This document shows, in pieces, positions 5,532-62,649 of a DNA stretch of 64,000 bases. How positions within the stretch are numbered: the first letter of the stretch is position 1; every line of letters starts with the position of its first letter. This DNA comes from Trichodelitschia bisporula (Eukaryota > Ascomycota > Dothideomycetes > Phaeotrichales > Phaeotrichaceae): NCBI GenBank assembly GCA_010356995.1, contig ML996703.1:721002-785001 (forward strand), read 5' to 3'. Under the pieces are notes generated by a model. It was not told the origin of the DNA. It made no database searches and was given only the letters and a program-made list of their open reading frames with translations. A program made the translations under genes and the position numbers.

Positions 5532-8527
5532 ATGGCCAGTTCCTCCGACCCTCAGCCAACAGGATCGCAGCACAGCAAACATGGCATTGCCAGGTCGGAG
5601 GCCAGATCTTCCGATGAGGAAGTAACGGTGGTGGGCGAGCCGCCCATAATCATCACACAGCCTGGTCGGCACCGGACTAACAGCCATCTGACCGTCCAAA
5701 CCGATATGGACTACGATGATGAGGTCCGGGATCTCGGCTATAGCTACACGAGAGAGCATTCGAACCGCCTCGGGGACGACCTTGCCATGCTCGAGATTGA
5801 GCGCAAGATCTCACAAGAAGAGAGCAAATCGAGCATGTCACGCGCACGGTCCACGGCGCGGTCAAGAGGCCGCAAGGAGGAGCCAGTCGACGATTTTGAT
5901 ATCGCGACTGAGCGGATTCATGAGCAGACGGCTAAGTTCAAGCCACCAGACAACCCGACCACCAAGACCGGCAAGGTCTTCAAGCGGATCCACAACTCCA
6001 GTTTTCTGGTCCGATGGGTTGCGTATATCACTCCGGTAACGCTGATCCTATTGATCCCACTTCTCCTGGGCGCGCTCCTGTTCAAAGAGGTGTCCGTGGG
6101 CGGAGTGAGGCTCGTCTGGTTTTGTATATGGCTAGAAATTGTGTGGTTATCTTTGTGGGCCGGCCGAGTAAGTTACCCGCGGGTGGCTCTGACGCAGCTG
6201 ATGTAGTGCAGCTTCTTGCGAAATGTTTGCCATTCCCAATCGGCCTTGTGTCTGGCCTTTTTGCGAACAACAGCAAAAAGTGGAGAGACATGGGCAAGCA
6301 GCTTGAACTGCCGGCAACGCTCTTTTTTTGGTGGCTCGCAATCGAAATCTCCTTCATCCCGACCATGACTAATCACCATATTAACGGGGACAATTCTCAG
6401 CGTGACTGGGAAAAGACTATGAACAAGGTTCTTATCTCGCTCTTTGTCGGTGTCATCCTCAACTTCGTGAAGAGGATCATCATACAGCTCATCGCTGTTG
6501 GCTTCCACGTCCGCACGTACCAAGACAGGATCGAGCTGAACAAGTTTCAAATCGGCAGCTTAGTCAAGTTGTACAAGTTTTCAAAGGAGAAAATTGCCAT
6601 GGAGGACGATGAGTTTGATACTCCAGAAACGGCTGGCTCTGGTGCACGTACGCCAGGAAGGCTTGTTAGGGACGCGCAGGAGAATACCATAAAAGGGATG
6701 AAGAAGTTTGGCGACATTGCGGGAAAGATTGCTGGAGACTTTACTGGTCGTCAAGTCGTTTCCAGCAGACACCCGCACCAGGTCGTCCTGACGCTCCTGA
6801 GCTCCACCCAAGGCAGTCAGATCCTCGCCCGCAGACTCTACCGGACGTTCGTGGAAGGGGGCGCGGAAACCGTCTCTCCCGACCAGCTCAAAAATGCGTT
6901 TGACAGCGAAGATGAGGCTGATGCGGCGTTCAGCATGTTCGACAAAGATATGAATGGCGACATTTCCATGGAGGAGCTGGAGGCTGTCTGCGTCGAGATT
7001 GGACGGGAGCGGAAATCCATCACGGCTTCACTCAAGGATCTGGACTCTGTCATCAGTAAGCTTGACAGCGTCTTCTCGTTCATCTGTGTGGTCATTACCA
7101 TCCTGGTGCTCGTCTGCGTCCTCTCCGCCTCAGCAGCTGGTGTCCTCACGTCTGCCGGTTCGGCCATTCTAGCCCTCTCCTGGCTCTTCTCGGCAACTGC
7201 CCAAGAGTTTCTACAGTCCGTCGTTTTTGTTTTTATCAAGCATCCATTCGACGTCGGCGACCGCGTAACCATCTACGGCAACACAGGGGCTCTTGGCAAG
7301 GGCGACGACTACTTCGTGAAAGAGGTGTCGCTGCTGTACACGGAGTTTAAGAAAATGGAAGGCCACGTCGTCCAGGCGCCAAACTCGTACCTAAATACAC
7401 TCTTTATCCTCAATCAGCGCCGCTCAGGCGGCCTCGCTGAAGCTGTACCGATGGTCTTCAAGTTCGGCACCACGCTGGAGCAGATCGAGCAACTACGCGC
7501 ACGTCTCCTCAACTTCGTCCAGAACGAGAAGCGCGAGTACCAGGGGAAGATTCTGACCGAACTCAAGAACGTCGAAGAAGCGCACTCGATCACCCTCAAC
7601 ATCGTATTCTTCTACAAGTCCAACTGGCAAAACGAGTTGCTCCGTCTGCAGCGTCGAAACAAGTTCATCTGCGCTTTGATGGTCACCATCCAGGAGCTTG
7701 GCATCGAGGGCCCGCGCATGCGCTTTCCTGGCCAAAAGGACTCCTTCCCGCTGTACATGCAGAACGTGCCGTACATGCCGCCGCCCGTGGGCACCAACGC
7801 CCACGGTCATTTCGGCACGCCCGACAATCCCAACGGGATCAGCCTGCCTGTGCCCCCGCCGGACCCGATTGTCAGCCCGCGCTCCAACCCAATCCACCCT
7901 ATTGAGGAGGAGGATGCCGTGCCAGAAGAACCCCTCGCACCGCGCTCCTCACTTCGTCGCCGCAATCCCCGGCCCCGCGGCGAGTCCCTCACCGAAATGT
8001 CGCGCCGCATGGATTTCTCTCTCGGTATGCGCGATCTGGTGTCCGGCGACTACCCGGGCGATGTGCATGACGACCCCGCAGCGCGCGAGAAGCTGCCACT
8101 GAAGTTTGCGGCGGAGCGGGAGCAACGGGAGCGGGAAATGCGGGAACGGGGATCAGTAGATCGGGTACGGTCGAGTATAGAATCGTTGGGGCGGTCGACG
8201 AGCGTGTCGAATCGGCTAGGTTTGCACCATGTGGGCACCGACTCGAGTTTGGGGCGCAGTAGGAGCAGTCGTCGGAATCGGTTCTTTGGGAGTTCAAGGA
8301 CGAGGGATGAGGGGGATTTGGCGGAGCGCGGAATGGGGGACATTGCGGAGGATGTGAGGGAGAGACTGGAGCGGCAGGGATCCAAGATATGGAGGAATAG
8401 AGGATCAATGGATGGAAAGCAAATGCGGGGGGCGTTGCTGGGGAGGAGTGAGAGTCAGGAGAGAATGAGCGACGTCAGGACGAGCGAGGGGAAGCCAAGT
8501 GGCGAGTATGAGATGAAGCGTTTGTAA
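5532..8527 (+). CDS. Mechanosensitive ion channel, MscS family with EF-hand (Msy1/Msy2-like)
   Basis: Fungal MscS-type channel related to fission yeast Msy1/Msy2, which act in the endoplasmic reticulum and control calcium after hypo-osmotic shock. Two exons, 5532-6167 and 6212-8527, are joined in frame by a 44-nt intron (GTAAGT...TGCAG), giving 983 residues. The order is: a hydrophilic N-tail of about 155 residues; hydrophobic segments near 158-178, 185-205 and 245-265; an EF-hand loop (DKDMNGDISMEE) near residue 455; two more membrane segments; and the MscS beta-domain (FIKHPFDVGDRV) near residue 550. A long basic, disordered C-tail rich in Arg, Ser and Pro follows. The EF-hand before the pore is diagnostic of the fungal group and suggests calcium feedback. 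The ATG at 5532 opens the only long frame. Confidence 0.93.
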
Positions 8528-29971: not shown

Positions 29972-31327
29972 TTAGAGCTCATCCTTCCGGTGAACGGCCT
30001 CTTCAGCCTTGCCTTCAGCCTCAGCCTCATCGATCTCCACATCCTTCTCCGCCTGCTTCTTCTTTTCTATCTTTCCATCCTCCTTCTTCGCCTTCTTCTC
30101 TTCCTTCTTTCCACTCTTCTTTTCTTCCTTCGCTCTCTCTTCCTTCAGCTCCGCCATCTGCTTCTTCAACTCTCCCGCCTCCGGCAACTCATGCGCCTCG
30201 AACCACTTCAACGCCTCCTTCGTGGCATGGAAGAACGGCAGTCCAGGCGGCGTAACCGAGATCTTATTGATCACAACCACCTCATCCTTCTGCAACTCCG
30301 CCCCCCTCGGCCACACATGCCCAACCCCCCTCAGCGAATAATGCAAGTTCGTCAACCACCTCTCCTCCCTCAAATCCACCTTCCCCCTAACCTCCTCCTT
30401 CCCGCTCCCAACACAAGCATGCGCCACCCGGACAGCGCCCCCGCCGAACACAACCCCCTCACTCACCCACCCCCCTATCATCTCAGTCTCATACGTCGCA
30501 TCTGAATACTCACTCTTCTGCGGCCCCCCCACCACCTCCCCACATCCATTCCGTCCCCTCCACCCCTCAATCCACTCCACCACCTTCACCGTCCTCTCAT
30601 CCCCCGCCCCCTCGGGAGGCCAATACGGCGCAACCACATCTGCATTCCCATGCATCTCAAGCAACGGCACCGGCCTGCGCCCCGGCCGACACCGCGCCCA
30701 CGCTCGCCCGCTCACACTCTCGTCCCCGGGTTTAGCCTCGAAGAACAACCCCCCCACGATCGCAACGCTAGCAATCCGCGTACTCAGCACAGGCGAACAA
30801 GCGAATAGATGCGTCATCCCGCCCCCTGTTCCGAGGCCCGCGACATGCACGCGCCGCGTATCGATGCAATACTTTGTCCCGAGATGGTCCAGCAGCGCCG
30901 CGGTGCGGACGATATCCGAACGGTTATCCCGCGTGTGGTCCGGCTCGTAGTCGGCCATGGGGTCGGACGTCCAGTATCCCTCCCCGGGTCAGCACTGCCC
31001 ATAGCAACGTACGGGAAGGGAACTCACTTCTTTAGCGTTGGGGTACACGACCACCCACCCCGCGTTCTTGTCCTCGTCGTGGAAACCCGTCCCAATGCCC
31101 ATCGTTTCCCCGGTCTCCCCGCGGTCGTGCAGCGCAATGATGACGCCGGTTGGCGTGCGCCCGTCGTATGTTGTCGGCAAATGGACGCGCAGCTCGCGGC
31201 CGTCGAAGTCGTATATCCGTTCGCCGGCTTTCACCTCGCCGGCGCCGGCGCTGATGCTGCAGCCGGGACTCGGGTCCGCAGCCACATATGCGCAGAGCAG
31301 CGCGAAGAGCGCGATGGTGAAGTGCAT
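29972..31327 (-). CDS. CE1/PHB-depolymerase-like protein with KDEL tail; catalytic Ser missing
   Basis: Related to carbohydrate esterase family 1 (feruloyl esterase C, LpqC). Exons 31327-31028 and 30979-29972 give 435 residues, with an intron of 48 nt. A signal peptide (HFTIALFALLCAYVAADP) is followed by the alpha/beta-hydrolase part: IIALHDRGETGETMG (oxyanion region), GYWTSDPMADY, VHVAGLGTGGGM (nucleophile elbow), MHGNADVVAPYWP (Asp) and GVGHVWP (His). In active relatives the elbow is G-x-S-x-G; here it is G-L-G-T-G, so position ~150 is Gly rather than Ser. The last 70 residues are an extreme Lys/Glu-rich stretch ending in HRKDEL and then the stop, an ER-retention signal. So it is probably an ER-lumen protein without esterase activity (inference). 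Confidence 0.85.
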
Positions 31328-31980
31328 GGTTGCCGTCTAGCTTCCACGATACCCCGGCGAGCCTTTTGTGACGTCTGCCCTCACCTCAAAAATTCCAAAG
31401 ACCACCTCACCACGCCCAGACTACGTCCATGCGCGAGCATACGCACATAACGCCGATCGCCGCAAATAGCCCTCTGCCACGCTGGTGTGTCGCGCATAGA
31501 GTGCCGAGCCCGGGAGGCATATTGCCTCGACCGATATTCGAGGCATTGACGAGCCCTGTGCGCACAGACCGGTCCGGTGGTATGATGCAACCAGAGTGAA
31601 GGGCACGGAGGTGGGTGAGGGCTCCGGGCCAGAGGTTGCTGAGATAACGCCGGTACGTACCCGGCAGAGTGACGCCCGAAGATGGGCAGGCCGCCCCCTG
31701 TCGGCTTGAGACGCAGCGGCGGCGCCACGAGGCGGGACGGCCGTCTCATGCGCGTGGGGGAGGTCGCGGTGCGGGGCTTGTAAAGCTTGAAACGTCATTA
31801 TTGTCCGCTTCGGTTTACTTCGGTATGCGGGGAAGCTAAGGCTTGCTGCAATGTTAATCACATTCGACCACCCGCACATCGAAGGATGGGTTAGGACGCG
31901 GAGATGCGGGGGCGGCGAGGATAAGGCTACTGTCACACAGCAGCAGATACCACAAAGGCAACTAGAAAACAGGTCTGGAT
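31328..31980. other. Intergenic
   Basis: About 0.65 kb upstream of the KDEL protein gene and downstream of the flavodoxin-like gene. A 197-codon minus-strand frame (31421-32014) overlaps the extension region in another frame and is probably chance. Confidence 0.45.
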
Positions 31981-32133
31981 TTACTGGATGCTGCACTTGA
32001 ACGGCAAACCACATAGGCCCTTCTTCGGGGTGTCTTCTTCCTCCACATGCTGCTGTGGCTGCGGGGCTGCAGCTTTCGCGGCACCCGCACCGTTAGACGT
32101 GCCCGCAGCCGCGCCCTTCTCACCTCCATCTAG
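31981..32133 (-). other. In-frame extension beyond the UGA stop, ending in a CaaX box
   Basis: Directly after the UGA stop (32136-32134) of the flavodoxin-like gene, the same frame stays open for 50 codons to a TAA at 31983-31981. The bases after the stop are CTAG, giving the UGA-CUA context known for efficient readthrough in fungi and animals. The extension is a Gly/Ala-rich linker, an acidic stretch and KKGLCGLPFKCSIQ, which ends in a CaaX-type farnesylation motif (C-S-I-Q) with a second Cys six residues before it. I found no usable intron that would remove the stop without deleting conserved enzyme sequence. Readthrough itself is an inference. Confidence 0.6.
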
Positions 32134-32918
32134 TCAAGAATGGGCCTTCGCAACAGCCTCGTAAAAGGCCTTGCCCTGCGCCTCCGCAATGCTGAGTTCC
32201 AACGCGCTAGGCTGGCGAGAGCCATCTGCGCCCGAAAACGTGCCGGCACCCCACGGGCTCCCACCGTGCACCTCGGACAAATTAGCCAGGCTCGCGAAGG
32301 TCGTCTTGTACCCCAGCGGGACGTAGATGATGCCGTGGTGGGCCAGCGTGGACATGGCCGCGATGGCAGTCGACTCCTGCCCGCCGCCCTGTGTGCCGGT
32401 GCTCACGAACAGGCCGCCGTATTTGCCCCAGTAGCCGCCGGTTTGCCATTGCCCGCCCGTCTTGTCCCAGAAGGTTTTCCATTGCGCGGGGAAGTTGCCG
32501 TAGCGCGTTGGGATGCCGAAGAGGATGCCGTCGTACTAGGGGGGGATGTTAGATGGAAGCTTGCGGGTGGGGAGGGGGGAAGTATTACCTGTGTCAGTGT
32601 GGCGGGGTCGTCGAGGGTGGGGATTGCGGAGTCCTTAGGCGGTGCGTGCATCTTCGCCAGGACCTCTTCGGTGAGCGTCTCTGGGACCCTAAGGCGGGGT
32701 TAGCGATGGGGTGGGAAGGTGAGGGAGGGGCTCGTACTGGTAGAGGTCGACGGTGCCACCGGCGGCTTCAATACCCTTCTTCTCCGCTTCGGCCAGCGTC
32801 TTGATGTGGCCGTACATGGAGTACTGGAGCGGGGGCGTCAGCATGTTGCACTGCAGGGTACATAGAGGGGTAGGCGGGGCAGGGAACTTACGAAGACGAT
32901 AGCGATCTTGGGAGCCAT
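32134..32918 (-). CDS. Flavodoxin-like NAD(P)H:quinone oxidoreductase (WrbA / Alt a 7 / Ycp4 type)
   Basis: FMN-dependent two-electron quinone reductase that protects against quinone and oxidative stress; the family includes fungal allergens such as Alt a 7. Minus-strand exons 32918-32892, 32823-32738, 32688-32589 and 32535-32134 give 204 residues. All joints restore the family sequence: [40 protein letters not shown] and [20 protein letters not shown]. The FMN phosphate and ring contacts ([26 protein letters not shown]) and [14 protein letters not shown] are present. The end, [13 protein letters not shown], coincides with the usual family end. The stop is UGA-CUAG and the frame stays open beyond it to a CaaX box (see separate entry), so a longer, membrane-anchored form of 255 residues is possible. 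Confidence 0.93.
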
Positions 32919-42846: not shown

Positions 42847-45800
42847 CTACTCATCCTCCATTTCCTCATCCTCATCCTCGTCCATGCCCTCCGCAGCATC
42901 AATCGTGAACGTCGGCGCCTGGTCCACCCCAAAGTAGCTATCGCTCATCAAGTACAGCGTCAGCTCCTGCTGTCCAGGATTCTGCACAATGTAGTCCAGC
43001 TTCGTCTTCAGCGACCTGCCCACCGTAATCCGCTTGATCCCGTACAGGCTCTTGGTCGCCTCATTCCCAACTACCAGCCACCAATTCTCCGCCTTCTCAA
43101 GTGGGAAGAACGGCGCATGCACCTTGGTATTAGGCTCCTCATCCTCATCAAGCTGCCGCTCAATCGTAACCTCTAAGAACGCCGGCTCGCCCGTGCTAAT
43201 ATCCTCCTTGCCAAGCACCTCAAACGACAAATCCAGATTCGGGTACGTCGTGTTGGTGAAGTTCGCCGCGTCGGCTAGCTGGCGATTGCTAAGCCCCAGC
43301 GCCGCAACGAGCTGCTCGTACTGCGCGTTCTCCGACGGATCCATGGCCTCCATGAAGGAGTAAATGTCCTCGATACCGGCGGCTGTGGCGGCACGGATGG
43401 CCTTGTCGTCGAAGTGCGGGATCTGCATTAGCGGGCTGTCGCGGTCCCACATGGCCTGCACGACCATCTGCGACATCTCCATGGCGTTCATGGCGTTGAG
43501 GTGGCCCTCGGAAGAGAGGATGTCGACACATGCGCTGAGCAGGTTGAGAGCCTTCTTGAGGATGACTTCCTGATCCTTGGCGAGATCGATGGGGAGCTGC
43601 ATGCGCGAGAAGTGCGCTTGCAGAAGCACAAAAGCCTTAAAGTGGGGCGAGTTGTAATCAGGCTGCGACATCTTGACGGGCACACGGTCGTAAATGCGCC
43701 TTAGGACCGTGTCTTCGTGGCGGCGGATCTGGATGTTTTCGAACTCTGTCGCTGAGGTGACGATTTCCAGGATACCCTTAAGCTTTGTCTTTGCGTTAAG
43801 GGACAGGAGGAAGGTTTGCATCGTGATGAAGGAGATCTTGTAGTATGCAGCGATCCGAGCAGCGTTCATGGGGGTGATGCTGTCGTCTTCTTCGTCCAGC
43901 TCAATCATCTTGGCCTCGACAAGATCCTTCAATGTCGTCTCCACCAATTCGGAGAGGAATGCGCTGAGACCTTCGTGCGAGGTGTCGGTAAGACCGTAGA
44001 AACTCGGGTTAGCCAGTAGGCGACGGTAGAAATAAGTGTACGTCGACCAATCCACAGCATCCTGCGTCGAAGAGATCATGCCCGTGCTGATTTCGCCGAC
44101 GAAAGCGTCATGAAGGTAGCCTTGAAGCTGGCTCTCAATAGGTAGAGCCTCGTTGAGGAACTTCTTATAGTAGTCTCGCTTGACAGCAGGCAGCATGAGA
44201 ACGCCCTTGCTGATCTTGTCCTTGCCTATCTGCCCTGACTTGCCAAACATCTGAAGGATCTCAGCGATGGTGTAGTCGATGTACCTGTGTTCCCGGCCAT
44301 CGAAAAACTGGGTCCCCATCACCACAACTAGATGGGCGTTGACATCGAGCTCCCAGCAGCAGTCCCGAGATACGAGTAACACCTGAATGGCGCCGATCTG
44401 GAACAGATGCAGCACAGCGCGCTTGTCAAACGAGTCCAAAGCTTCATGATAGTATCCAATGCCATGCTGCAAGGATTCCATCAGAGCCCGCTCGTTGATT
44501 TTCTCCAGAACAGGTTGCAGCTGTTCCAGGGGCGCATTCAGGAAGCGGTCCTCGTTATCATCAGCGGTGGCCGCGGCGAGCAGATCCAAAGCAGTTGCCC
44601 GGCTCTGCTTCCGGTTCGGGACAAATACAAGCGCCGGCTTGTCCACGGAGAGTGTGAGAATGGACTGATATACCGGCTTGGCCATGGCGAGCATCAGCGA
44701 AGGGAAATGGGGGATTGTGAATGACTGAATGTGGAGCTCCAGGGGAACAGCGCGAACGGCAGGGCTAAAGTTGAAAATGGTGTGCTTTGTCGCGCCGATC
44801 CATTCGCCAATGTCACGGGCGTTGGAAAGCGAGACACTAAGTCCGACGATTCGGAGACCAGACTCCAGTTGCTGGGACATGGCGTGCATGCGCGAGACAA
44901 TCGCCTCGTAGATGTAGCCACCAAATCCACCAAGCAGATGCAAATCGTCGGCGATGAAGAGCGTCACGCTTTGGACATTCTTCCGGCGCTGCCACTGGCC
45001 AGAAACGACATCCCACTGCTGCGGTGTGGCCAGAATGAGATCTCCACGCTCGAGCAAGCGAAGATCTGCCGTGCTCTCGCCCGTGAGCTTGACTAGCTCC
45101 TTGCCCCCAGCCAGGCCGGAGAGACGCTTTTGCCAGTCCTTGAACCGCAAGTCCACGAGCTCCTGGAATGGCGCAATGTAGACTGCCCGACCACTCTCTG
45201 GGTTCCTCCAGTGGCGAAGCAGAGCGAATTCTGCGCAAACCGTCTTGCCAATGCCGGTCGGCGCACCTAGGAAGACATTGTCGTCGGTCGAGTAAAGCGA
45301 CTGGAAAACCTGGGTTTGAACCTTGTTGAATTGTCCCCAGTTGGGGTAGAGATTCTGGTACTCGGTCACCTTCAACGCGCTAACAGGTAGGGCTTGGAGA
45401 TCCAGCAGAGGAGTATGGGGCGGGAACTTCTCAGGCAGGATCAGTTTCTGAAAGGAGACGGCAACCTTCGATTCTGAGTGCATCCAGCGATCGGAGATGA
45501 CGGTGATGAAGTAGTGTGGAGGCATAGGCTCCGAGATCGGGACGGTGAAGTCCACCAAATGCTCCTTCATCTCACCGACAGCATAGTCGCGACGCAGAAA
45601 GAACAGGTCGTGGTAGAGGATTTCTTCACCGTCGCAGTCCTCGACGAGAATCCAAAAGCTTTCCGCCGCACCATGGATGGTATCATCCCATTCAAAATTG
45701 GGAGTGATGGTAAGGTCGACGCGAAGCACTGACCGCGTCACGGGCTGGACTTGTGCCTGGAGATCCAGTCTTGGGAATTTCTCGACGAGAGAGCACACGT

Positions 45801-48800
45801 TCTTCCCCGCCTTGGGCATACCAAGTAGTTCGCTCATGCGCGGGGGGTCGAGGTCGAAGTAATGAGACCAAGGCACGTCTATGCGCTCGGCCTTCTGGAT
45901 AATATCGCGAGAGCAATGCGGGAACTGCCGAAGTGGCGACATAGTGGGCCACATGCGCTTCTCCGCCATTTTGCACAAATCCAGGGCAACCTTCGCAACC
46001 GACGACCAGCCCTTCCTGAGACAGATCTCGAAGATGGCACGGAGAATACGTCCCGCGGACTGGGTCACGTAAACCATATCGGCCATCAGCGCCAGTCCTT
46101 CAAGCTTGAGGCGAGAAATGTAAGCCTGGAGGAGGACATTGATCTTCGCATGCGGCTCCTCAATTGTCTCCTTGACGGGGATAGGAACCCGTCCGATCAT
46201 CTTCGCGATCTCGAGTTTCTCGTCCTGGCGCACTGGGATATATTTGAACTCGTCGCTGAGGGCAAATATCCGGAACAGCTCGATCTGCGAGATGGAGGGT
46301 TGGATGTGTTGGTTGTAGACCGCCATAGAGTTGTGCGTAATATAGTAGTGAGAGGCGATCCGACCGAGTTCAGTTGTCTGGAGCTTCCCGCTGCGGAGGT
46401 CATACTTCGCCAGCCCGCACTTCTCCAGAACCGTGGCAGCGGAATGGATTAAATCAACACGCTTCTGTTCAAGCGCTACATCATCTTGATACTCGGGACC
46501 GACGCTGTAGAGCCCTGGAGACCGCAGCATCCGGACGAAGAGATACGTGTAGCCGAGCCACTCTACACCCTCGTCGCGATTGCGCACATTCCCAAGCACA
46601 ATCTCGGCATTGAGATTGTCAGCGAGTTTGCTAACGAATTGACTCTCAATGGGGAGCTGTTGATTGAGGAGTGAGAGGTAGTACTGGATTTCGGCTTGCG
46701 TGGTGATGATGATACCCTCGCCGTATGTGTCGTATTGCGGACGACCGGCACGCCCTAGCATCTGAAGAACATCCTGAGGACTGAGTTCTACCCAACTGCC
46801 CTTCTCAGGCGAGTAGATCTGCGTCCCCTTGATGATGACAGTGTGGGCGGGCAGATTGACACCCCATGCAAGGGTAGCTGTGCAGACCAAAACCTGGAGC
46901 TGACCGCCGGCAAACAGTTCTTCCACTGACGTGCGATCAGCGCGAGTCATTCCTGCGTGATGGATGCCGAAGCCGTACGGCATGAGATCTTTCAGATCCG
47001 CATTGTTGATAGCGTCAGCCTCTTCCCGCAGAATTTCACGACTTGCCGCATCACTCCGCAAAATCTGACCGATCGTATCCTCCTCGAGCGCCTTGTCCCG
47101 GATGTATTTGGCGGTTTTGGCAGTCTCTTTGCGAGAGTGGACAAAGATCAACATCTGGTTTCGGCTCTGGCCAACTTGCTCCAGTACCTTGCGGTAGCAC
47201 ACATCGTTCATCGTCTTGAGCTGCTTGATGGCCTTTTTATCGGTAACACCAATGAACTCCTGCTTCAGTGGGCAAGGCCGGAAGGAGCCATCGAAGTGGA
47301 AGAGACCCTTGATGGGATCGACTCGGAGGAAGCTCGCAACATCGCGGTAATTTGGCAACGTGGCACTGAGACCGAGGATTCGAACGGGATCACCGGTCTG
47401 CTCGGTCCGACGAATGGTCCTGCTCACGATGCTCTCCAGAACTGGGCCACGATCATCGTGAAGGAGATGGATTTCGTCGATACAGATCAGCCGAACCAGA
47501 TTAGTATAGCTCGTGTCAGTAGCTTTCCGCGTAATCACATCCCACTTCTCGGGCGTCGTGACAATGATCTGAGTATCAGCAATTTGCTGCTTCGTAAGCT
47601 GGCGATCGCCCGTAAGTTCCGACACGGTAATGCCGTAGGGTTTTAACCGCGCACCAAAGTTGCCAACTTGCTCTTGGACGAGGGCCTTCAGCGGGGCGAT
47701 GTAAATGATCTTGAACTCGTCAAGGTTGATCTCGCCCGTCTCTGGGTTCCGGTGCTTTCCGATTTCGCGAAGCATCGCCAGCATGGCCACATTGGTCTTT
47801 CCGGAGCCAGTGGGTGCACACACCAGCATGTTGCCATCATCTTCAAATGCTGACGGGTAACAACGAGTCTGGATGCGGTTGAGCTTCGCCGAAGAGCCAA
47901 AACCTATCCGCGCCCACTCGGGCAAAGTGGACGTCGGCAGATCTGGCGTTTCGTTGGCATCACGTTTTGGCTTCGGGGCGGGGACGTGGATTTCTTCGTA
48001 GCCCTTGAATGTGCGCTTCGTCGATCCCTGGGGAAGCTTGACGTTGGAGTTCGTCATGAGATGATTTCCCTGTTCGAAGACCAGGTTCTCCAAGTTGATC
48101 AGACGTTTGGGCTGGAGACCACCTTTAAGTCCTTGTTCCTTGCCGTCAGCTTCTTCAGCCTTAGGCTCGGGGCGGTCGATGTCCATCAGGTCCAGTTTCA
48201 TCTTTTTCGCTCCGGAGGAGTCGTCCTCGGCGACTTCACGCGTTCGCAGTTCGGTCAGCATATTGCGATGCCCAGCAGCAATCATTTCGCGCTCGATCAC
48301 TTGCCGGGCGTCCTTATCGTCCGCTGCACGCCGCCATCGCGTGACCCAGACGATCTTGTCGCGGTTGAGGACTAGCTTTGAGACGAGCTCCGGATGCTCG
48401 TAGTCGAACAGATCCATGAGTTCGTTCTCAATTTCACGAAGGGGCTTTTCCTCGCCTTCCTCATCTGTGCCAGCAAGAATCTCAAGAGCGTCCTTAGTCT
48501 TCTCCTGCTGGGTGTGAGGGTCCTCGTAGATGCGGCCGATCTGACGCTGCAGCCAGAAGGCGTCGATATCGTACGCTTGAATGATCGATTCGCCTTTTTG
48601 TTTTTTCGCCACATCGTCCACTCCCGTCCGAATGATCAACTCGCCGTCTGCATCGAGTTCCGGGCCGGTTTCGTTCCCGGCGGTGATATCTCCGTCTTCG
48701 ACGGGCTGCTCCTCTTCGTCTTCCAATTCTTCATCGGAGGTGTCGCCTTCATCTCGGATCTCAAAGGTCTGACCGGCAGCCTCGTCATCTTCATCCTCAT

Positions 48801-49548
48801 CGAAGACAACTGCCACACCCTGGCGGTCGTCGACCTCGCCGTCGGCCCCCTCTCCAGCATCAGCCATATGTTCATCCTCATCTTGAGCATCGTAGTCGGT
48901 AATCTTCTTGCCCAGATTGACCAGCTCGTTGAACTCCTTTGAGCTCATGGTGACACCCAAAATGTCATCCACCTCCTTCTTTTTGTCAAAGTCCTTCAAA
49001 TCTTCGTCCTTCAAGTATTCCAATACGGCATCCGCAGCGCTGCGCGTGACTGTGTTTGGCACATCACCCAACTTGCGCGCAACCATCGTCGTGATCAACT
49101 CGAACGTGGCCCGGGTAGCCGGCGTCTTGGGGCGGTACTTCAGCCCCTCAACCAGCAGATCCTGCTGCGACAGAATGCCCGCGCCACGTAGCTGTGCTGG
49201 CTCGCCGCGACCCTTCTTCTTCTGTTGTTGTAGGACCGACGCACCCTCGTCGAACTTGCCGCGCTCCACATCCAACGTCTGACGCGGTTTCTTCTGCGTC
49301 GGTAGATTGTCGCGCCCGGTACGCCCACCCATGTCTTTGATGCTGATGCGGCCAGCGAGCGATTCGGGATCACCAGTGTTCTCATCGGTACGCCGCGTCA
49401 CGAAGCGCCGGTCGGCTTGCAACACCAAGTTGGACATGGCTGTGTATTTGAACTGCGACAGATTGTTGGACTTCTCGCCCTGGCCACCCTGCCCTCCTTG
49501 AGCGCCCTGCCCTCTTTGGGCGCCTTGCCCTCCTTTGCGATCGGCCAT
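42847..49548 (-). CDS. BRR2: Brr2, U5 snRNP pre-mRNA splicing helicase
   Basis: Ski2-like RNA helicase that unwinds U4/U6 to activate the spliceosome. A single 2233-residue exon, the usual length. A Gly/Gln-rich repeat (GGQGAQ-like, residues 5-25) precedes the conserved N-terminal part and an acidic linker. The first helicase cassette is canonical: APTGSGKTNV near 578, DEIHLLHD near 694, SATLPNY and LGRAGRPQYD near 931, then a Sec63 unit. The second cassette keeps a P-loop (GAPTGIGKTVCAE near 1428) but has DDLHLLGG near 1535 and MFGKSGQIGKD near 1770 in place of strict motifs, fitting the inactive regulatory cassette known in Brr2. A second Sec63 unit and an acidic end (DEDEDEEMEDE) follow. 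It is odd that this largest gene of the window lacks introns. Confidence 0.97.
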   Translation of the reverse strand: MADRKGGQGAQRGQGAQGGQGGQGEKSNNLSQFKYTAMSNLVLQADRRFVTRRTDENTGDPESLAGRISIKDMGGRTGRDNLPTQKKPRQTLDVERGKFDEGASVLQQQKKKGRGEPAQLRGAGILSQQDLLVEGLKYRPKTPATRATFELITTMVARKLGDVPNTVTRSAADAVLEYLKDEDLKDFDKKKEVDDILGVTMSSKEFNELVNLGKKITDYDAQDEDEHMADAGEGADGEVDDRQGVAVVFDEDEDDEAAGQTFEIRDEGDTSDEELEDEEEQPVEDGDITAGNETGPELDADGELIIRTGVDDVAKKQKGESIIQAYDIDAFWLQRQIGRIYEDPHTQQEKTKDALEILAGTDEEGEEKPLREIENELMDLFDYEHPELVSKLVLNRDKIVWVTRWRRAADDKDARQVIEREMIAAGHRNMLTELRTREVAEDDSSGAKKMKLDLMDIDRPEPKAEEADGKEQGLKGGLQPKRLINLENLVFEQGNHLMTNSNVKLPQGSTKRTFKGYEEIHVPAPKPKRDANETPDLPTSTLPEWARIGFGSSAKLNRIQTRCYPSAFEDDGNMLVCAPTGSGKTNVAMLAMLREIGKHRNPETGEINLDEFKIIYIAPLKALVQEQVGNFGARLKPYGITVSELTGDRQLTKQQIADTQIIVTTPEKWDVITRKATDTSYTNLVRLICIDEIHLLHDDRGPVLESIVSRTIRRTEQTGDPVRILGLSATLPNYRDVASFLRVDPIKGLFHFDGSFRPCPLKQEFIGVTDKKAIKQLKTMNDVCYRKVLEQVGQSRNQMLIFVHSRKETAKTAKYIRDKALEEDTIGQILRSDAASREILREEADAINNADLKDLMPYGFGIHHAGMTRADRTSVEELFAGGQLQVLVCTATLAWGVNLPAHTVIIKGTQIYSPEKGSWVELSPQDVLQMLGRAGRPQYDTYGEGIIITTQAEIQYYLSLLNQQLPIESQFVSKLADNLNAEIVLGNVRNRDEGVEWLGYTYLFVRMLRSPGLYSVGPEYQDDVALEQKRVDLIHSAATVLEKCGLAKYDLRSGKLQTTELGRIASHYYITHNSMAVYNQHIQPSISQIELFRIFALSDEFKYIPVRQDEKLEIAKMIGRVPIPVKETIEEPHAKINVLLQAYISRLKLEGLALMADMVYVTQSAGRILRAIFEICLRKGWSSVAKVALDLCKMAEKRMWPTMSPLRQFPHCSRDIIQKAERIDVPWSHYFDLDPPRMSELLGMPKAGKNVCSLVEKFPRLDLQAQVQPVTRSVLRVDLTITPNFEWDDTIHGAAESFWILVEDCDGEEILYHDLFFLRRDYAVGEMKEHLVDFTVPISEPMPPHYFITVISDRWMHSESKVAVSFQKLILPEKFPPHTPLLDLQALPVSALKVTEYQNLYPNWGQFNKVQTQVFQSLYSTDDNVFLGAPTGIGKTVCAEFALLRHWRNPESGRAVYIAPFQELVDLRFKDWQKRLSGLAGGKELVKLTGESTADLRLLERGDLILATPQQWDVVSGQWQRRKNVQSVTLFIADDLHLLGGFGGYIYEAIVSRMHAMSQQLESGLRIVGLSVSLSNARDIGEWIGATKHTIFNFSPAVRAVPLELHIQSFTIPHFPSLMLAMAKPVYQSILTLSVDKPALVFVPNRKQSRATALDLLAAATADDNEDRFLNAPLEQLQPVLEKINERALMESLQHGIGYYHEALDSFDKRAVLHLFQIGAIQVLLVSRDCCWELDVNAHLVVVMGTQFFDGREHRYIDYTIAEILQMFGKSGQIGKDKISKGVLMLPAVKRDYYKKFLNEALPIESQLQGYLHDAFVGEISTGMISSTQDAVDWSTYTYFYRRLLANPSFYGLTDTSHEGLSAFLSELVETTLKDLVEAKMIELDEEDDSITPMNAARIAAYYKISFITMQTFLLSLNAKTKLKGILEIVTSATEFENIQIRRHEDTVLRRIYDRVPVKMSQPDYNSPHFKAFVLLQAHFSRMQLPIDLAKDQEVILKKALNLLSACVDILSSEGHLNAMNAMEMSQMVVQAMWDRDSPLMQIPHFDDKAIRAATAAGIEDIYSFMEAMDPSENAQYEQLVAALGLSNRQLADAANFTNTTYPNLDLSFEVLGKEDISTGEPAFLEVTIERQLDEDEEPNTKVHAPFFPLEKAENWWLVVGNEATKSLYGIKRITVGRSLKTKLDYIVQNPGQQELTLYLMSDSYFGVDQAPTFTIDAAEGMDEDEDEEMEDE

Positions 49549-51048
49549 GATGAAAGAGTATGTTTAGGACGCGGGAGAGATGGTGATGATGGGCGGACGT
49601 TTGCGCAAGTAAAGCGCGTTGGTGAGTTGGAGGATGTCCTAGTCAAAGTTCGGTGCGGTGATTTGAGTTGAGATAAGGTAATGCGGAGAGAATTAACGCG
49701 CTTCCTATGTGGCGAAGGAGCGGCGATGTAGAAGTTGACGATTCGCGACGCCGTTCTGAAATGTCCGGGCAACATAGGCTGAAGCTTCTCCACGTCCGGA
49801 GAAAGGTTTTCCCGGTGGCGTCCAAAGTTTGGCGGGCTTGAACATCAGAGCCATGTCGTTCAAGCAACATCAAACATCCTAAGTTGTGTTCTTAAGGACA
49901 GAAAGGATCACCATGATGAAGTCCACTATATTCGGTTCAGCCGTGATCCATCGCGTTGAAAGAACTGCTTTGACCTAAGGCATTTCGGATCAAAGATGTG
50001 ACTCCTGTCAATAGTGAGATGGAAACTGAAGCAACCAGTGCAAGCAAAGCGAAAGCGGTTACTTCCCACGCGACTGGACTCTTGCGGAACCCGACCAGTT
50101 CCCCCCGTACAATCTCGGCCAACGCCTGTCACGATTCATGTCTCCCCCTCCGTCGAGGACGCGCGTAACTTTCGGTTCCCCAAAATCCGATATGTGGGCT
50201 TTCATCTTCACAAATCGACATGTCGTCCAGTAACTCACATGGTATTGGAGATTGTCATGGTTCCCGCTGATCTGCAGCCAACACCATCGGCTCCGGTATC
50301 TCAAAGCCCTAAAAATCGGTATGTTACAGATGCCGGCCGAATCCAAGATTTGTCGCATCTACATCGGACGTCAGACAAAGAACATAAAACATCATCACAC
50401 CAACCCAACTACTGAAAACGCCAGGCTCATAAACTTCACGGCCGTGGCGGACTTAACCACAGTAGTTCTAATATGGGTCAATCTTCGGCCACAAGGAATA
50501 GGATCCCAGATACGATCGATATACAACTGATATACCATGGAGGCCCGTGCTCCCCGCCAGATGTCTCTTTACCCCAATGCCTACGGTTCGTCCTCTTCCG
50601 CCTACCGCCACACCGTCTGACGCCCTCCGGCCGGTGGTCGGCACGCAGGGTTAACGCCCTCTAACGGTCCACGCGAACGGCATGTAAAGTAGCTGGGGCG
50701 GATATTGCGCGCCATTTATCTAGCGCACGTATACAGCCTGAAAACGAGCGACAGCCTCTTGTGGTGTGAACCCTAACTGCCGCAGCCTATTGGCAGCCCA
50801 CCATCGTGGGCGCCAACAGAGAGTCTCGACAGCAATATGCACGATCCAATATCTCGCCGGCATTTCACAGGGTATGTGTAATCTGTTTGGCTGTTTGTCT
50901 ATGCCTTCACTGTATCCTTGGACGGATGGCAATTTATGTCGCTGTTTGCAAAAGGGATTATATGAACCTACAACCCAGCCTTCTCCAAACACATCCAGCA
51001 TCCCACACTCTCTAGCCAGTCCGCCTTAGAACCACCGCCATCGTCGCC
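49549..51048. other. Intergenic, about 1.5 kb
   Basis: Divergent region between BRR2 and the cutinase gene. Frames up to about 133 codons (50014-50415) are not recognised. The last 150 bases are the probable cutinase promoter and leader. Confidence 0.45.
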
Positions 51049-58130: not shown

Positions 58131-61100
58131 ATGGCTCGCCTCATGTACTTGAGCGAGCTGTGTCGGCTCTCCGGCTTAGCCCAGGTGGGTAAAATCCCCG
58201 GCATCTCATGCGTCAGCGCTAGTGATGAAGATGGCGAGTTCACATTCATACTGGGCGATGGACAGGACTGGCACTTCTTCACAGTTGTCGTGTCAGGTAT
58301 GTGGCAACACGCTCAATCCGAGCCAATTGATGTGTCTTACTCACCGACCACAGATGTCATGGTGTACCCACATTCACACGTCTTTACGGTCTTCTCCCAG
58401 GGGCATCTGCCAGACGATCTCTCTCAAGCCGTCGATGGGCTTGGATTCCCGTACAACATGGGCGCTACTTTGACCCAGTTGCTGGGCGACATGTCCAGGC
58501 TGTATCGGCATATGGCTGGCCAAGATACATCTGCCACACATCACGACCCGGGGGATGACCTTGCCGCTGAAGACATGGATGCTGACACCATGGAAGAGAC
58601 CATTTGCTCCGATTTGCGGTTGGCGAAGCGGGCTGGTTTTAGGGTGGGCGTTCATGGCAAATTCGCGCTCGATGAGCCTTCATACGTTTTGCTCAGTATA
58701 CGTATCTCGAAGCTTGGAATATCAAGCGCTGCCATGGCTGCGTGGGAGATGGACCGCAAGGACTACCTTCTGCTGGCTATCCAGTACAGCGAGGGATATG
58801 TTCCAATGAGCGCGCTGAACGATATGTCACGCCATCAAGTACCTAAGGGGGAAACGATGCTATTTCGAGTAGGAGTCAGCCGCTCGTACAAGCCTAGCCT
58901 GAAGCACATCATCAACGCGTTCTCGAGCAGTCGGTATGGCGGTACCTCCGGCGCTCCGACCGAGAAGCATGGTTTTCGGTGGTTTTTCATCGCGAACACT
59001 CTGAACAACTTGCTCAACGAGCGCCTCGTACCTATCGTCAACCTACGTGCTACTGGTTTCACCTGGGTGCAGGCGGGAGAGAAATGCGCAAACCAGTTCG
59101 AGAACTCGGGCAATTTCTCGAATGAGGTGGATTCTACCGCCCTGGCTTCCACGCCCACCGGCAGCGTTTTGCCTGGTGTGCCTCCAGTCGTTCAAGCCGA
59201 CCACATCCTCGACGACCATCCGGCGTGGGGGTATTCCTTCCCCTTGGTCGCCATGCAGTTTGTTCTTCGCCGCTTCGTGCGCTGCACCGACTTCTGCGTG
59301 GTTTGCCACCGCAAGATCCCTGGTGACCTGGAGGCGATCAAGCCGGACGTCTGTGACAAACCCCTGTGCCTCTATCAGTACATGGCCCTCGGCCTGGGCC
59401 CGAGCATTGAGAACGACATTCGCTCTCAGCCGTATGTTGTAGATCTCCTGATCAGCTTCGCCTATGCTCGCGCCTGTTCCGGGAATCCCATGGATCATGC
59501 CTGTCCTTCCGGCATGGGGCTCGAGGTACCGAATCCAGAATTCTACACCATGAATATCGAGAACGTACCCCTTACTACGTATCCTCGTCCGTCTGGCATC
59601 AACGGTGCATTTCGGACGTGGTTTGCCTGGTACACTCCTCATCTTAAGACGCTGAACTTCGTAAACTGCAACACTCCCTGTCCCTTCAGGAATGGAGAAT
59701 GGATATCTGTGCGCACTGGCAATAAGCCGGACGCAAGCCTCTGCTTCAGTGGTGTAGTATCAAACGTTGTCGGAGCCAACATATGCATTCAGGACGTCTC
59801 GAAGTGGCCTAACGCAATTGTGGTCACGCCTATCCCAATTGGTCCGTTTGGGAATAATGTTGCCACTGGAACCATACAGATCTGTTTCCATGTCGCAAAG
59901 TTCGACACGCTCTTTGACCACTTGGTACCTTATATGAAGGCCTGGTCGATGCAAAAGATGCTGTGCGACCTGCCGAGCGTAACGGAGATGCAACAATTCC
60001 TTCAAAACAATCACTGGAGCAATCTTTCAGAGTGGACAAACAGAATTTCATCAGCGGCTCTTGGGATGCTGCGGTGGATCATTGCATCTAACCGTGCGTT
60101 CATTGTCCATGTCGACACTTTCCGGAATGACCCCAGCAGCGTCTGGGGTATGCCCGGCTGGGTGCAGTTCCGCGTCGCCATGGGTGCTCCTGTAAGTCGG
60201 TAACGAGTATTTTGCGATTACTACTGACAAAGACAGGACAAGGAAGCTCGGTTCAAGAAGGCTGTGGATCAATTTGGCCGCATAGCTAGCCCCCGCTATC
60301 CGACTATCTTCGCCTTTCACGGCAGCCCGATAACAAACTGGCATAGGATCATTAGGGAGGGCTTGAACTACGATTCTATTGCCCACGGTCGTTCATATGG
60401 CCATGGGGTCTACTGCGCTCTACAAGCTGCGGTCAGCTTGCCGTACGCTCGAGACGATCCTGTAAGACACCCCCGCTGCCCACAGAACTCGGCATATTTG
60501 CTTGCGTTTGCTTACTATAGGCTCCAGAAAAACCCGATGTGGCCGAACAGTATGCTTAAAATGACCGCTGCCATTTCACTCAATGAAATTGTGAACGCGC
60601 CGAATCAGTTCGTCTCTCGGGCACCTCACTTTGTTGTCGACAAGGCCGATTGGATTCAGGCTCGGTACCTCTTCGTCCGCTGTGCAACTCTTTTTCCGCC
60701 GGAGCGCTCCACCTCACCGCCGATAGTTCAAGAGCTGGACCCGGTGATGCGGCCGGTTGGCGTAAACGGCGAGATTCTGATCATCCCAAAGTTGAATTTG
60801 ATGCCTCAGCGTCAAGAAGGCGATTCGCAAAACCCGATCGAGCTCAGTTCCGACGACAGTGACGAAACCGACTTGGACGACCGGGAGCTTTTGGCTTCTC
60901 CGAAACAGAAAAAGAAGCCAGCCATGCCGCTCACCGACTTCATCCCTGGCACGCTGGACTACAGCGAACTGCCACAGATGGCGGCACCGTCCAACTCGAC
61001 GTCCTCGGCCACGAATCGTCTCCGCAAGGAGTTCCAGCGGATAATCGAGGCGCAGGAGAAGACGCCGTTGCATGAACTGGGCTGGTACACTGATCCCAAC

Positions 61101-61607
61101 CAGATGAGCAACATGTACCAGTGGATCTTCGAGCTGCACTCGTTCGATCCTGCCTCGCTGCTGGCGATGGACATGAAGGGCATGGACATCAAGTCCATCG
61201 TGCTCGAGATGCGCTTCCCCGCCAACTTCCCACTGCAACCACCTTTTGTCCGCGTGCTCAAGCCACGCTTCCTGGCGCTACAGGAGGGTGGTGGCGGCCA
61301 CGTCACGGCCGGAGGCTCCGTTTGTCTCGAGGTACGTCCCCGCTGCTCCACCGCAATGCGAAACCCAACTCAGCTAACATCCACTTAGATGCTCACAAAC
61401 ACCGGCTGGAGCCCAACCGTCGCGCTCGAGAACATCCTCCAGCAGATCCGCCTGGCCATGACGTCCGGCGAGCCGCCCGCGCGCCTCAACACCCGCCACC
61501 AAACAGAGTACTCCGTCCACGAGGCGTATAATGCATATCTGCGTGCCTGTCGTATGCATGGCTGGACGGTCCCGGAGGGCTTCCAGAAGACGGCGTTCGG
61601 GATTTAG
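58131..61607 (+). CDS. PARP (ADP-ribosyltransferase) - UBE2Q-like E2 fusion protein
   Basis: Large protein joining two modification enzymes. Exons 58131-58296, 58354-60191, 60237-61331 and 61389-61607 give 1105 residues. The N-terminus (~1-110) looks like an RWD-type fold (FTVVVS-DVMVYPHSHVFTVF). Residues ~150-640 are fungal-specific and include a Cys pair (FCVVCHRKIPG). The PARP catalytic part has FHGSP (His ~697) and GHGVYCALQAA (Tyr ~728); the usual catalytic Glu is not evident (HFVVDKADWIQARYLFV), which points to mono-ADP-ribosylation. An acidic linker has a SUMO-interacting-like IELSSDDSDE near 869. The C-terminal UBC domain has LEMRFPANFPLQPPFVRV and the active Cys ~1031 in GGSVCLE-MLTNTGWSP, spanning the last intron. 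The first intron (57 nt) is a multiple of three, so its retention would not break the frame. Confidence 0.88.
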
Positions 61608-62067: not shown

Positions 62068-62072
62068 AAAAA
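62068..62072 (-). terminator. Pol III T-run terminator of the 5S gene
   Basis: Read on the minus strand, the 5S gene ends in TGTATG followed by a run of five T. This is the usual RNA polymerase III stop. Confidence 0.75.
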
Positions 62073-62189
62073 CATACAGCAGTTGGGATTCGCTGCTGGT
62101 CACCCACGCAACTACTAGTCAACCGGTTCGAAGCTTAACTTCAGTGAGCAGACGGGGACTGGTGTACTCTTCGACCTATAGCCGTATGT
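62072..62189 (-). rRNA. 5S ribosomal RNA
   Basis: Read on the minus strand, this 118-nt segment begins ACATACGGC and ends TGCTGTATGT, so the two ends pair as helix I. It contains the conserved GAAGTTAAGC loop, AGTAGTTGCGTGGGTGACC and CAGCGAATCCC, all matching fungal 5S rRNA. A T-run follows at once. Internal control elements for TFIIIA/TFIIIC are therefore within the gene. A lone 5S gene away from the rDNA repeat is normal in Pezizomycotina. It lies between the PARP-E2 gene and a damaged second copy about 330 bases away, in the same orientation. Confidence 0.93.
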
Positions 62190-62524
62190 GGTGATCCGTG
62201 CTGCCGGTTGATTATAGCTGGCAAAAAAGACGGAAGCATTGTCAAAAGAAGTGTTAGCTCTCCGAGCGAGAGCGTTCTTGGGTTGGAATAGGGGACGTGC
62301 GTTAAGCTGCGGGCATCTCCCCTCGATCAGCCGGCTGAGCAGAAAGCTTCACGGGCCACCTGAAAAATTATCATGGCAACCTCGCCTGGCTGATTTTGCG
62401 GACGGGACAGCTATGACTTTTTCAACTGGTCCTTCGGCCAGAGTGTCGGCTTACATTAAGCATCGGAGCTCCTCCCGCTGAACGGGCCGATCAGCAAGCT
62501 TCCGGGGTGCAAAGAAGACAAAAA
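62190..62524. other. Spacer between the two 5S copies
   Basis: About 0.33 kb with no recognisable gene. The bases flanking the two 5S copies are not similar, apart from the A-rich terminator side. Confidence 0.5.
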
Positions 62525-62633
62525 ACATACAGCAGTTAGGATTCGCTGCTAGTCACCCACGCAACTACTAGTCAACCGGTTCAAAGCTTAACTTCAGTGA
62601 GCAGACGGGGACTGGTGTACTCTTTGAACTACG
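62525..62633 (-). pseudogene. Degenerate 5S rRNA copy
   Basis: A second copy of the 5S sequence in the same orientation as the intact one. It matches along about 109 nt with mostly transition changes (for example GGG to GAG-type, TTCGAA to TTCAAA). The 5' end is lost: where the intact gene has ACATACGGC, this copy meets a 16-nt palindromic hairpin (62634-62649). Helix I therefore cannot form. The 3' end and T-run are kept. Most likely a non-functional 5S relic. Confidence 0.85.
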
Positions 62634-62649
62634 GCCGCATTTTTGCGGC
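62634..62649. repeat. Hairpin GCCGCA-TTTT-TGCGGC at the 5' edge of the 5S relic
   Basis: A 6-bp perfect stem with a four-base loop sits exactly where the 5' end of the 5S sequence is replaced. It may mark a rearrangement junction. Confidence 0.7.

Follow-up and report, generated by a model that had tools for sequence, protein, structure and literature searches.

Can one fungal gene supply both a soluble and a lipid-anchored form of a quinone reductase by letting a few ribosomes pass its stop codon? The question is raised by a gene of Trichodelitschia bisporula, in a stretch of 64,000 nucleotides analysed as a whole (hereafter the window), whose UGA stop codon is followed by CUAG and by an open frame that ends in a CaaX box. 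Weighing the enzyme family, the stop context, the codon usage of the extension and the competing explanations, we consider it probable (about 0.72) that programmed readthrough would make a minor lipid-anchored isoform of this enzyme.

Gene structure and enzyme family

The gene has four exons and 204 codons and runs from an ATG at 32918 to a TGA at 32136-32134. It lies on the minus strand; the initial annotation gave no strand, and its coordinates and description of the feature proved correct. Intron positions were deduced from the splice sites together with the protein, and all three introns placed in this way begin with a GT donor and finish with a YAG acceptor, a CTRAY branch site lying 11-14 nt before the end. 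Such shortness and such branch sites would suit a filamentous ascomycete. The features of the gene and of the sequence beyond its stop codon are as follows.

32892..32918, minus strand: exon 1, protein start MAPKIAIVF, of a Pst2/WrbA-type NAD(P)H:quinone reductase
32891-32824, minus strand: intron 1, 68 nt, GT donor CGTAAGT, CTGAC branch 14 nt from the intron end
32738..32823, minus strand: exon 2
32737-32689, minus strand: intron 2, 49 nt, CTAAC branch
32589..32688, minus strand: exon 3
32588-32536, minus strand: intron 3, 53 nt, CTAAC branch
32137..32535, minus strand: exon 4, coding part up to the first stop, ending YEAVAKAHS, the family terminus
32134..32136, minus strand: UGA, the proposed readthrough stop
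32130..32133, minus strand: CUAG, the readthrough-promoting context UGA CUA (G), known from published work
31984..32133, minus strand: in-frame extension of 50 sense codons, a linker rich in Ala, Gly, Pro, Gln, Glu and Lys followed by the putative anchor
32011..32013, minus strand: Cys of KKGLCGLP, candidate palmitoylation site (present in the sequence, role predicted)
31984..31995, minus strand: CaaX box CSIQ, candidate farnesylation site (present in the sequence, role predicted)
31981..31983, minus strand: second stop, TAA

Judged by its profile and structure-database matches, the product is a type IV NAD(P)H:quinone oxidoreductase (WrbA/Pst2) of the flavodoxin-like kind. It matches NF002999 (211.6 bits against a cut-off of 141) and TIGR01755 (201.7 bits against 132.5) over the whole protein, and its best match in the PDB is Pst2 (5mp4, 'Protoplast secreted protein 2'), with an E value of 7.6e-83. 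These matches bear out the earlier designation of the gene as a flavodoxin-like quinone reductase. Since the alignment to Pst2 covers residues 3-201 of 204, the UGA lies three residues past the end of the aligned domain, in agreement with the earlier statement that it stands at the usual terminus of the family. Pst2 itself, as the PDB chain, has 198 residues and is without a tail, whereas the gene described here has a tail beyond its UGA.

At this usual protein end the UGA is followed by CU(A), in the form UGA CUAG (32136-32130), and then by the 50 open codons, just as had been noted. The full extension reads LDGGEKGAAAGTSNGAGAAKAAAPQPQQHVEEEDTPKKGLCGLPFKCSIQ. Its C-terminus, ...KKGLCGLPFKCSIQ, holds the CaaX box CSIQ and, six residues upstream, the second Cys that had also been pointed out. 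By sequence alone, the end of the extension has a Cys at position -4, a suitable a2 and X, and a linker rich in Gly, Ala, Pro and Gln before CSIQ.

Other features of the window

A same-strand neighbour downstream (31028-31327, minus strand) has an apparent start 654 bases beyond the second stop and a signal-peptide-like beginning, MHFTIALFALLCAYVAADP; a long frame after that start (29972-30988) has no Pfam match. Elsewhere, one uninterrupted frame of 2,238 codons (42847-49563, minus strand) encodes the spliceosomal helicase Brr2. Its best PDB match is the 'Pre-mRNA splicing helicase-like protein' 5m59 (3,060 bits), which we take to be a Chaetomium protein, and lower matches are human hBrr2 (3jcr, 2,323 bits) and the BRR2 of 3jcm (1,836 bits), presumably the yeast protein. 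Two 5S rRNA genes lie on the minus strand at 62071-62189 and 62524-62642, their starts 453 bases apart; they score unequally (89 and 71 bits), and the second is perhaps a copy that has diverged. On the plus strand, a frame at 60228-61388 has a partial match to the PARP catalytic domain near its start, and one at 5936-8527 has a mechanosensitive ion channel beta-domain together with an EF-hand-like stretch that falls below the Pfam cut-off.

Coding character of the extension

To measure the coding character of the extension, we took seven frames of the window with Pfam support, 4,607 codons in all, as the training set of a codon model. These are the seven with a Pfam hit among 18 stop-to-stop frames scanned, which were picked from 77 of at least 150 codons; two of them were trimmed at the 5' end, and some noncoding overhang may remain in the training frames. 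In its own frame the tail scores 0.25 bits per codon (the main frame scores 0.37), while its other five frames score -0.35, -0.61, -0.03, -0.43 and -0.37. When the tail was shuffled with its dinucleotides preserved, only one of the 3,725 shuffles that stayed free of stops scored as high; none of the 99 windows downstream or the 126 upstream of the gene did so, these flanks being presumed noncoding. Followed in frame in 90-nt windows, the score is 0.31 at 32055, -0.07 at 31995 and -0.33 at 31935, with the TAA at 31983-31981, in a profile noisy enough to dip to -0.08 within exon 4 as well.

Other controls were weaker. The GC content at third positions is 0.64 in the tail, below the 0.81 of the main frame. 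When only the choice among synonymous codons is scored, the tail (0.118) comes out slightly lower than any 50-codon window of the main frame (lowest 0.125), and its own DNA reaches 0.164 when read in one of the antisense frames. With each of the seven training genes left out in turn, 0 to 12% of out-of-frame 50-codon windows match or exceed the score of the tail, depending on the gene (none for PARP and NUFIP, 3% for BRR2 and 12% for DUF3712). The same holds for 12.5% of the 5,005 stretches of 50 codons in the window that contain no stop, a set that includes real genes. Because the synonymous-only, third-position and out-of-frame controls are weaker, part of the coding signal is amino-acid composition. 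The extension looks coding, less so on synonymous codons alone, and appears to end in a recognisable signal; the support for its being protein-coding is good but not decisive.

Frequency of the combination

We counted how often the elements seen here occur in the window, defining a CaaX box as C, then a1 other than P, D, E, K or R, then a2 one of ILVMTCF, then X one of SMQACNTLFHV. The base for these counts is every stop triplet of the window, whichever of the six frames it lies in, that has a later in-frame stop, 3,956 in total. TGA-CTA accounts for 16 of them, with 17.9 expected, so that this context is not enriched in the window. Tails ending in a CaaX box follow 13 of the 3,956, and only 3 when the tail must also have at least 40 codons. 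Both elements come together once, in the gene described here, where 0.05 would be expected (16 x 13 / 3,956).

The length of the open frame is by itself unremarkable. When the 600 nt that follow the stop were shuffled with dinucleotides preserved, 4,635 of 20,000 shuffles stayed open that far, and the stop-free stretches mentioned above were 5,005 of 18,244 sampled from the window. At least 50 open codons and a CaaX box together arose in 24 of the 20,000 shuffles. Since the combination was defined after it had been seen, these counts are guides and not tests, and for the same reason the enzyme family is the strongest independent argument for the tail.

Tailed relatives within the family

Ycp4 of Candida albicans and Saccharomyces cerevisiae belongs to the same flavodoxin-like family. 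The C. albicans protein is described as having an extension of about 90 residues that ends in a CAAX box (PMC4556627). Yeast Ycp4 stands with Ras1 and Ras2 in a table of substrates of the palmitoyltransferase Erf2 (PMC5364179), and its residue 243 is among predicted palmitoylation sites (PMC3929663). The first two of these sources bear out the statement of the initial annotation that yeast Ycp4-type relatives are lipid-anchored; neither Ycp4 nor Pst2 appears in the main text of a yeast prenylation map (PMC4358939). By analogy with these proteins, a linker followed by a CaaX tail is what a member of the WrbA/Pst2/Ycp4 family can be expected to carry. Compared by description, the C. albicans extension is part of the ordinary protein, whereas here the extension lies behind a UGA.

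We also searched sequence collections for fungal relatives of the gene. A protein-based scan of viral_contigs gave no matches. Two DNA patterns, one for the family signature and one for the conserved C-terminus with TGACTA after it, were run against both genome_contigs and viral_contigs and matched nothing in either. A tblastn search of plasmids returned 199 records, all below 60% identity, and the best 10 of the 199 are bacterial.

Proposed readthrough of the UGA

We propose that most ribosomes would stop at the UGA and release a soluble enzyme of 204 residues, while a small share, perhaps a few percent, would read the leaky UGA-CUAG and add one residue and then 50 more, ending in CSIQ. A single gene would in this way provide two isoforms of the quinone reductase, one free and one membrane-bound. 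In Ustilago maydis, CUA after UGA is reported to be sufficient for readthrough, and UGA CUA (G) is described as a weak termination context (PMC4207609); this accords with the earlier designation of UGA-CUA as an established readthrough context in fungi. For the human consensus UGA CUA (G), a review gives about 4% readthrough (PMC4973966).

RNA structure 3' of the stop was not unusual (z -0.37 and -1.03), which would leave the short context to bring about readthrough by itself, as in U. maydis. Insertion of selenocysteine at the UGA was ruled out, the machinery being absent from fungi (PMC4207609). The earlier reading of this locus as readthrough followed by prenylation, both steps of which we infer, is consistent with the tests made.

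Other possible routes to the extension

The tail could be real and yet reach the enzyme through an alternative splice that takes out the UGA, which is how the PGK of Aspergillus nidulans acquires its hidden PTS1, and a review describes fungi as switching between splicing and readthrough to expose one and the same signal (PMC4973966). We looked for introns, 40 nt or longer, that would begin in exon 4, and scored their donors by a simple home-made count. This gave 271 candidates that keep the frame and remove the stop. Only 34 of these have a GT donor and 16 a GT donor with a YAG acceptor, and none of the 16 has a YTRAY branch site 8-25 nt from its end. A further 40 candidates with a donor score of at least 2.5 and a branch site either start with GC or lack a YAG acceptor (12 of the 40 listed). 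The nearest misses among the matches listed are a GC-AG candidate of 51 nt (32174-32124, donor GGCAAGG, TTGAC 10 nt from its end) and a GT candidate of 288 nt (32406-32119, TTGAC 15 nt from its end), but both end in GAG. The shorter would delete the last 13 residues of the enzyme, and its donor sits in the codons for QGK, residues common to Pst2; the longer would delete the last 90 residues and wreck the enzyme. We consider this explanation unlikely.

A recent stop-gain, or an error of assembly or sequencing, might instead have interrupted a gene that normally encodes its CaaX tail directly, as an ordinary Ycp4. The coding appearance of the tail and the place of the C. albicans tail within an ordinary protein (PMC4556627) would both suit such an event, and one substitution would be enough. 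A random nonsense change, however, has no reason to fall at the family terminus or in a leaky context, and TGA-CTA is found at so few of the stop triplets of the window that we regard this account as improbable.

That the extension is ordinary 3' UTR, with an open frame and a CaaX box by chance, is very unlikely. In the GC-rich DNA of this region a frame often stays open for 50 codons, as the shuffles showed, and one stop-free stretch in eight scores as high as the tail in a set that includes real genes. Against this stand the single open shuffle that matches the codon score, the single stop triplet at which CaaX tail and TGA-CTA coincide, and the CaaX tails known in the family from Ycp4 (PMC4556627, PMC5364179). 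Least credible of all is A-to-I editing of the mRNA from UGA to UGG in sexual tissue: stop-loss editing is reported for hundreds of genes of Fusarium graminearum and Neurospora crassa, but it is described there as a change of UAG to UGG, with U at -1 in more than 70% of F. graminearum sites and A or G favoured at +1 (PMC11156358), whereas the adenosine here is preceded by G and followed by C.

The putative lipid anchor

Following readthrough of the UGA, the Cys of the CaaX box would be farnesylated and the Cys six residues upstream would probably be palmitoylated, in the manner of Ras and Ycp4. The lipidated tail would then tether the enzyme to a membrane, which is likely to be the plasma membrane. 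By analogy with Ras, palmitoylation may plausibly fall on the upstream Cys in KKGLCGLPFKC. The predicted box CSIQ, with Ile at a2, Gln at X and Ser (not aliphatic) at a1, fits a farnesyltransferase substrate. The related CSIM, which differs from it in X alone, is reported to be fully modified by human farnesyltransferase expressed in yeast, and CaaS/Q sequences are said there to lack prenylation, apparently the kind that geranylgeranyltransferase I carries out (PMC11152559). In the main texts checked for it, that of PMC11152559 included, CSIQ does not occur as a tested motif.

Candida members of the enzyme family are described as acting against lipid peroxidation at the plasma membrane. All four of them, and not just the one that bears a CAAX box, are reported at the membrane; an anchor is therefore not the sole route there.

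Comparison with known readthrough systems

Fungi and animals both have established cases of a PTS1 signal concealed behind UGA-CU (PMC4207609, PMC4973966). The tpi1, art1 and rpe1 genes of U. maydis are the nearest likeness, since they too are fungal, have UGA-CU(A) and have an extension that ends in a targeting signal; the screen of U. maydis TGA-CT genes described with them sought PTS1 (PMC4207609). The signal hidden in those genes is the peroxisomal PTS1, whereas the gene here, known from its sequence, carries a CaaX box on a quinone reductase.

Drosophila Syx17, by its name a syntaxin, is an animal gene of another family. Its readthrough extension, listed in a ribosome-profiling study, likewise has a predicted farnesyltransferase signal (PMC3840789), and its prenylation is no more than a prediction. 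Human readthrough extensions have been screened for prenylation sites (PMC4359377), and readthrough of yeast PDE2 is described as altering protein degradation (PMC4973966). The frameshift of Podospora YIP3 was considered as a precedent for a recoded CaaX box and set aside, the main text of its description containing neither CaaX nor prenyl (PMC3777964). We found no report of a readthrough lipid anchor in the WrbA/Pst2 family in the open-licence literature, covered by titles and the beginnings of abstracts and in part by top matches.

Implications

The fungal targeting signals revealed by readthrough in the literature consulted are peroxisomal, and a lipid anchor would be a different kind of signal. 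We suggest, tentatively, that filamentous ascomycetes may keep a Ycp4-type anchor behind a conserved leaky UGA-CUA, so that one gene gives a ratio of soluble to membrane-bound enzyme set by the efficiency of termination. For peroxisomal enzymes it has been argued that oxygen likely regulates readthrough at such stops, as hydroxylation affects termination at a stop codon followed by C (PMC4207609). If such regulation holds here, the membrane share of an antioxidant enzyme would follow the oxygen level. If the proposed readthrough is true, it would suggest that annotations that stop at UGA-CU miss membrane isoforms, and that readthrough serves more generally to distribute one enzyme over several compartments.
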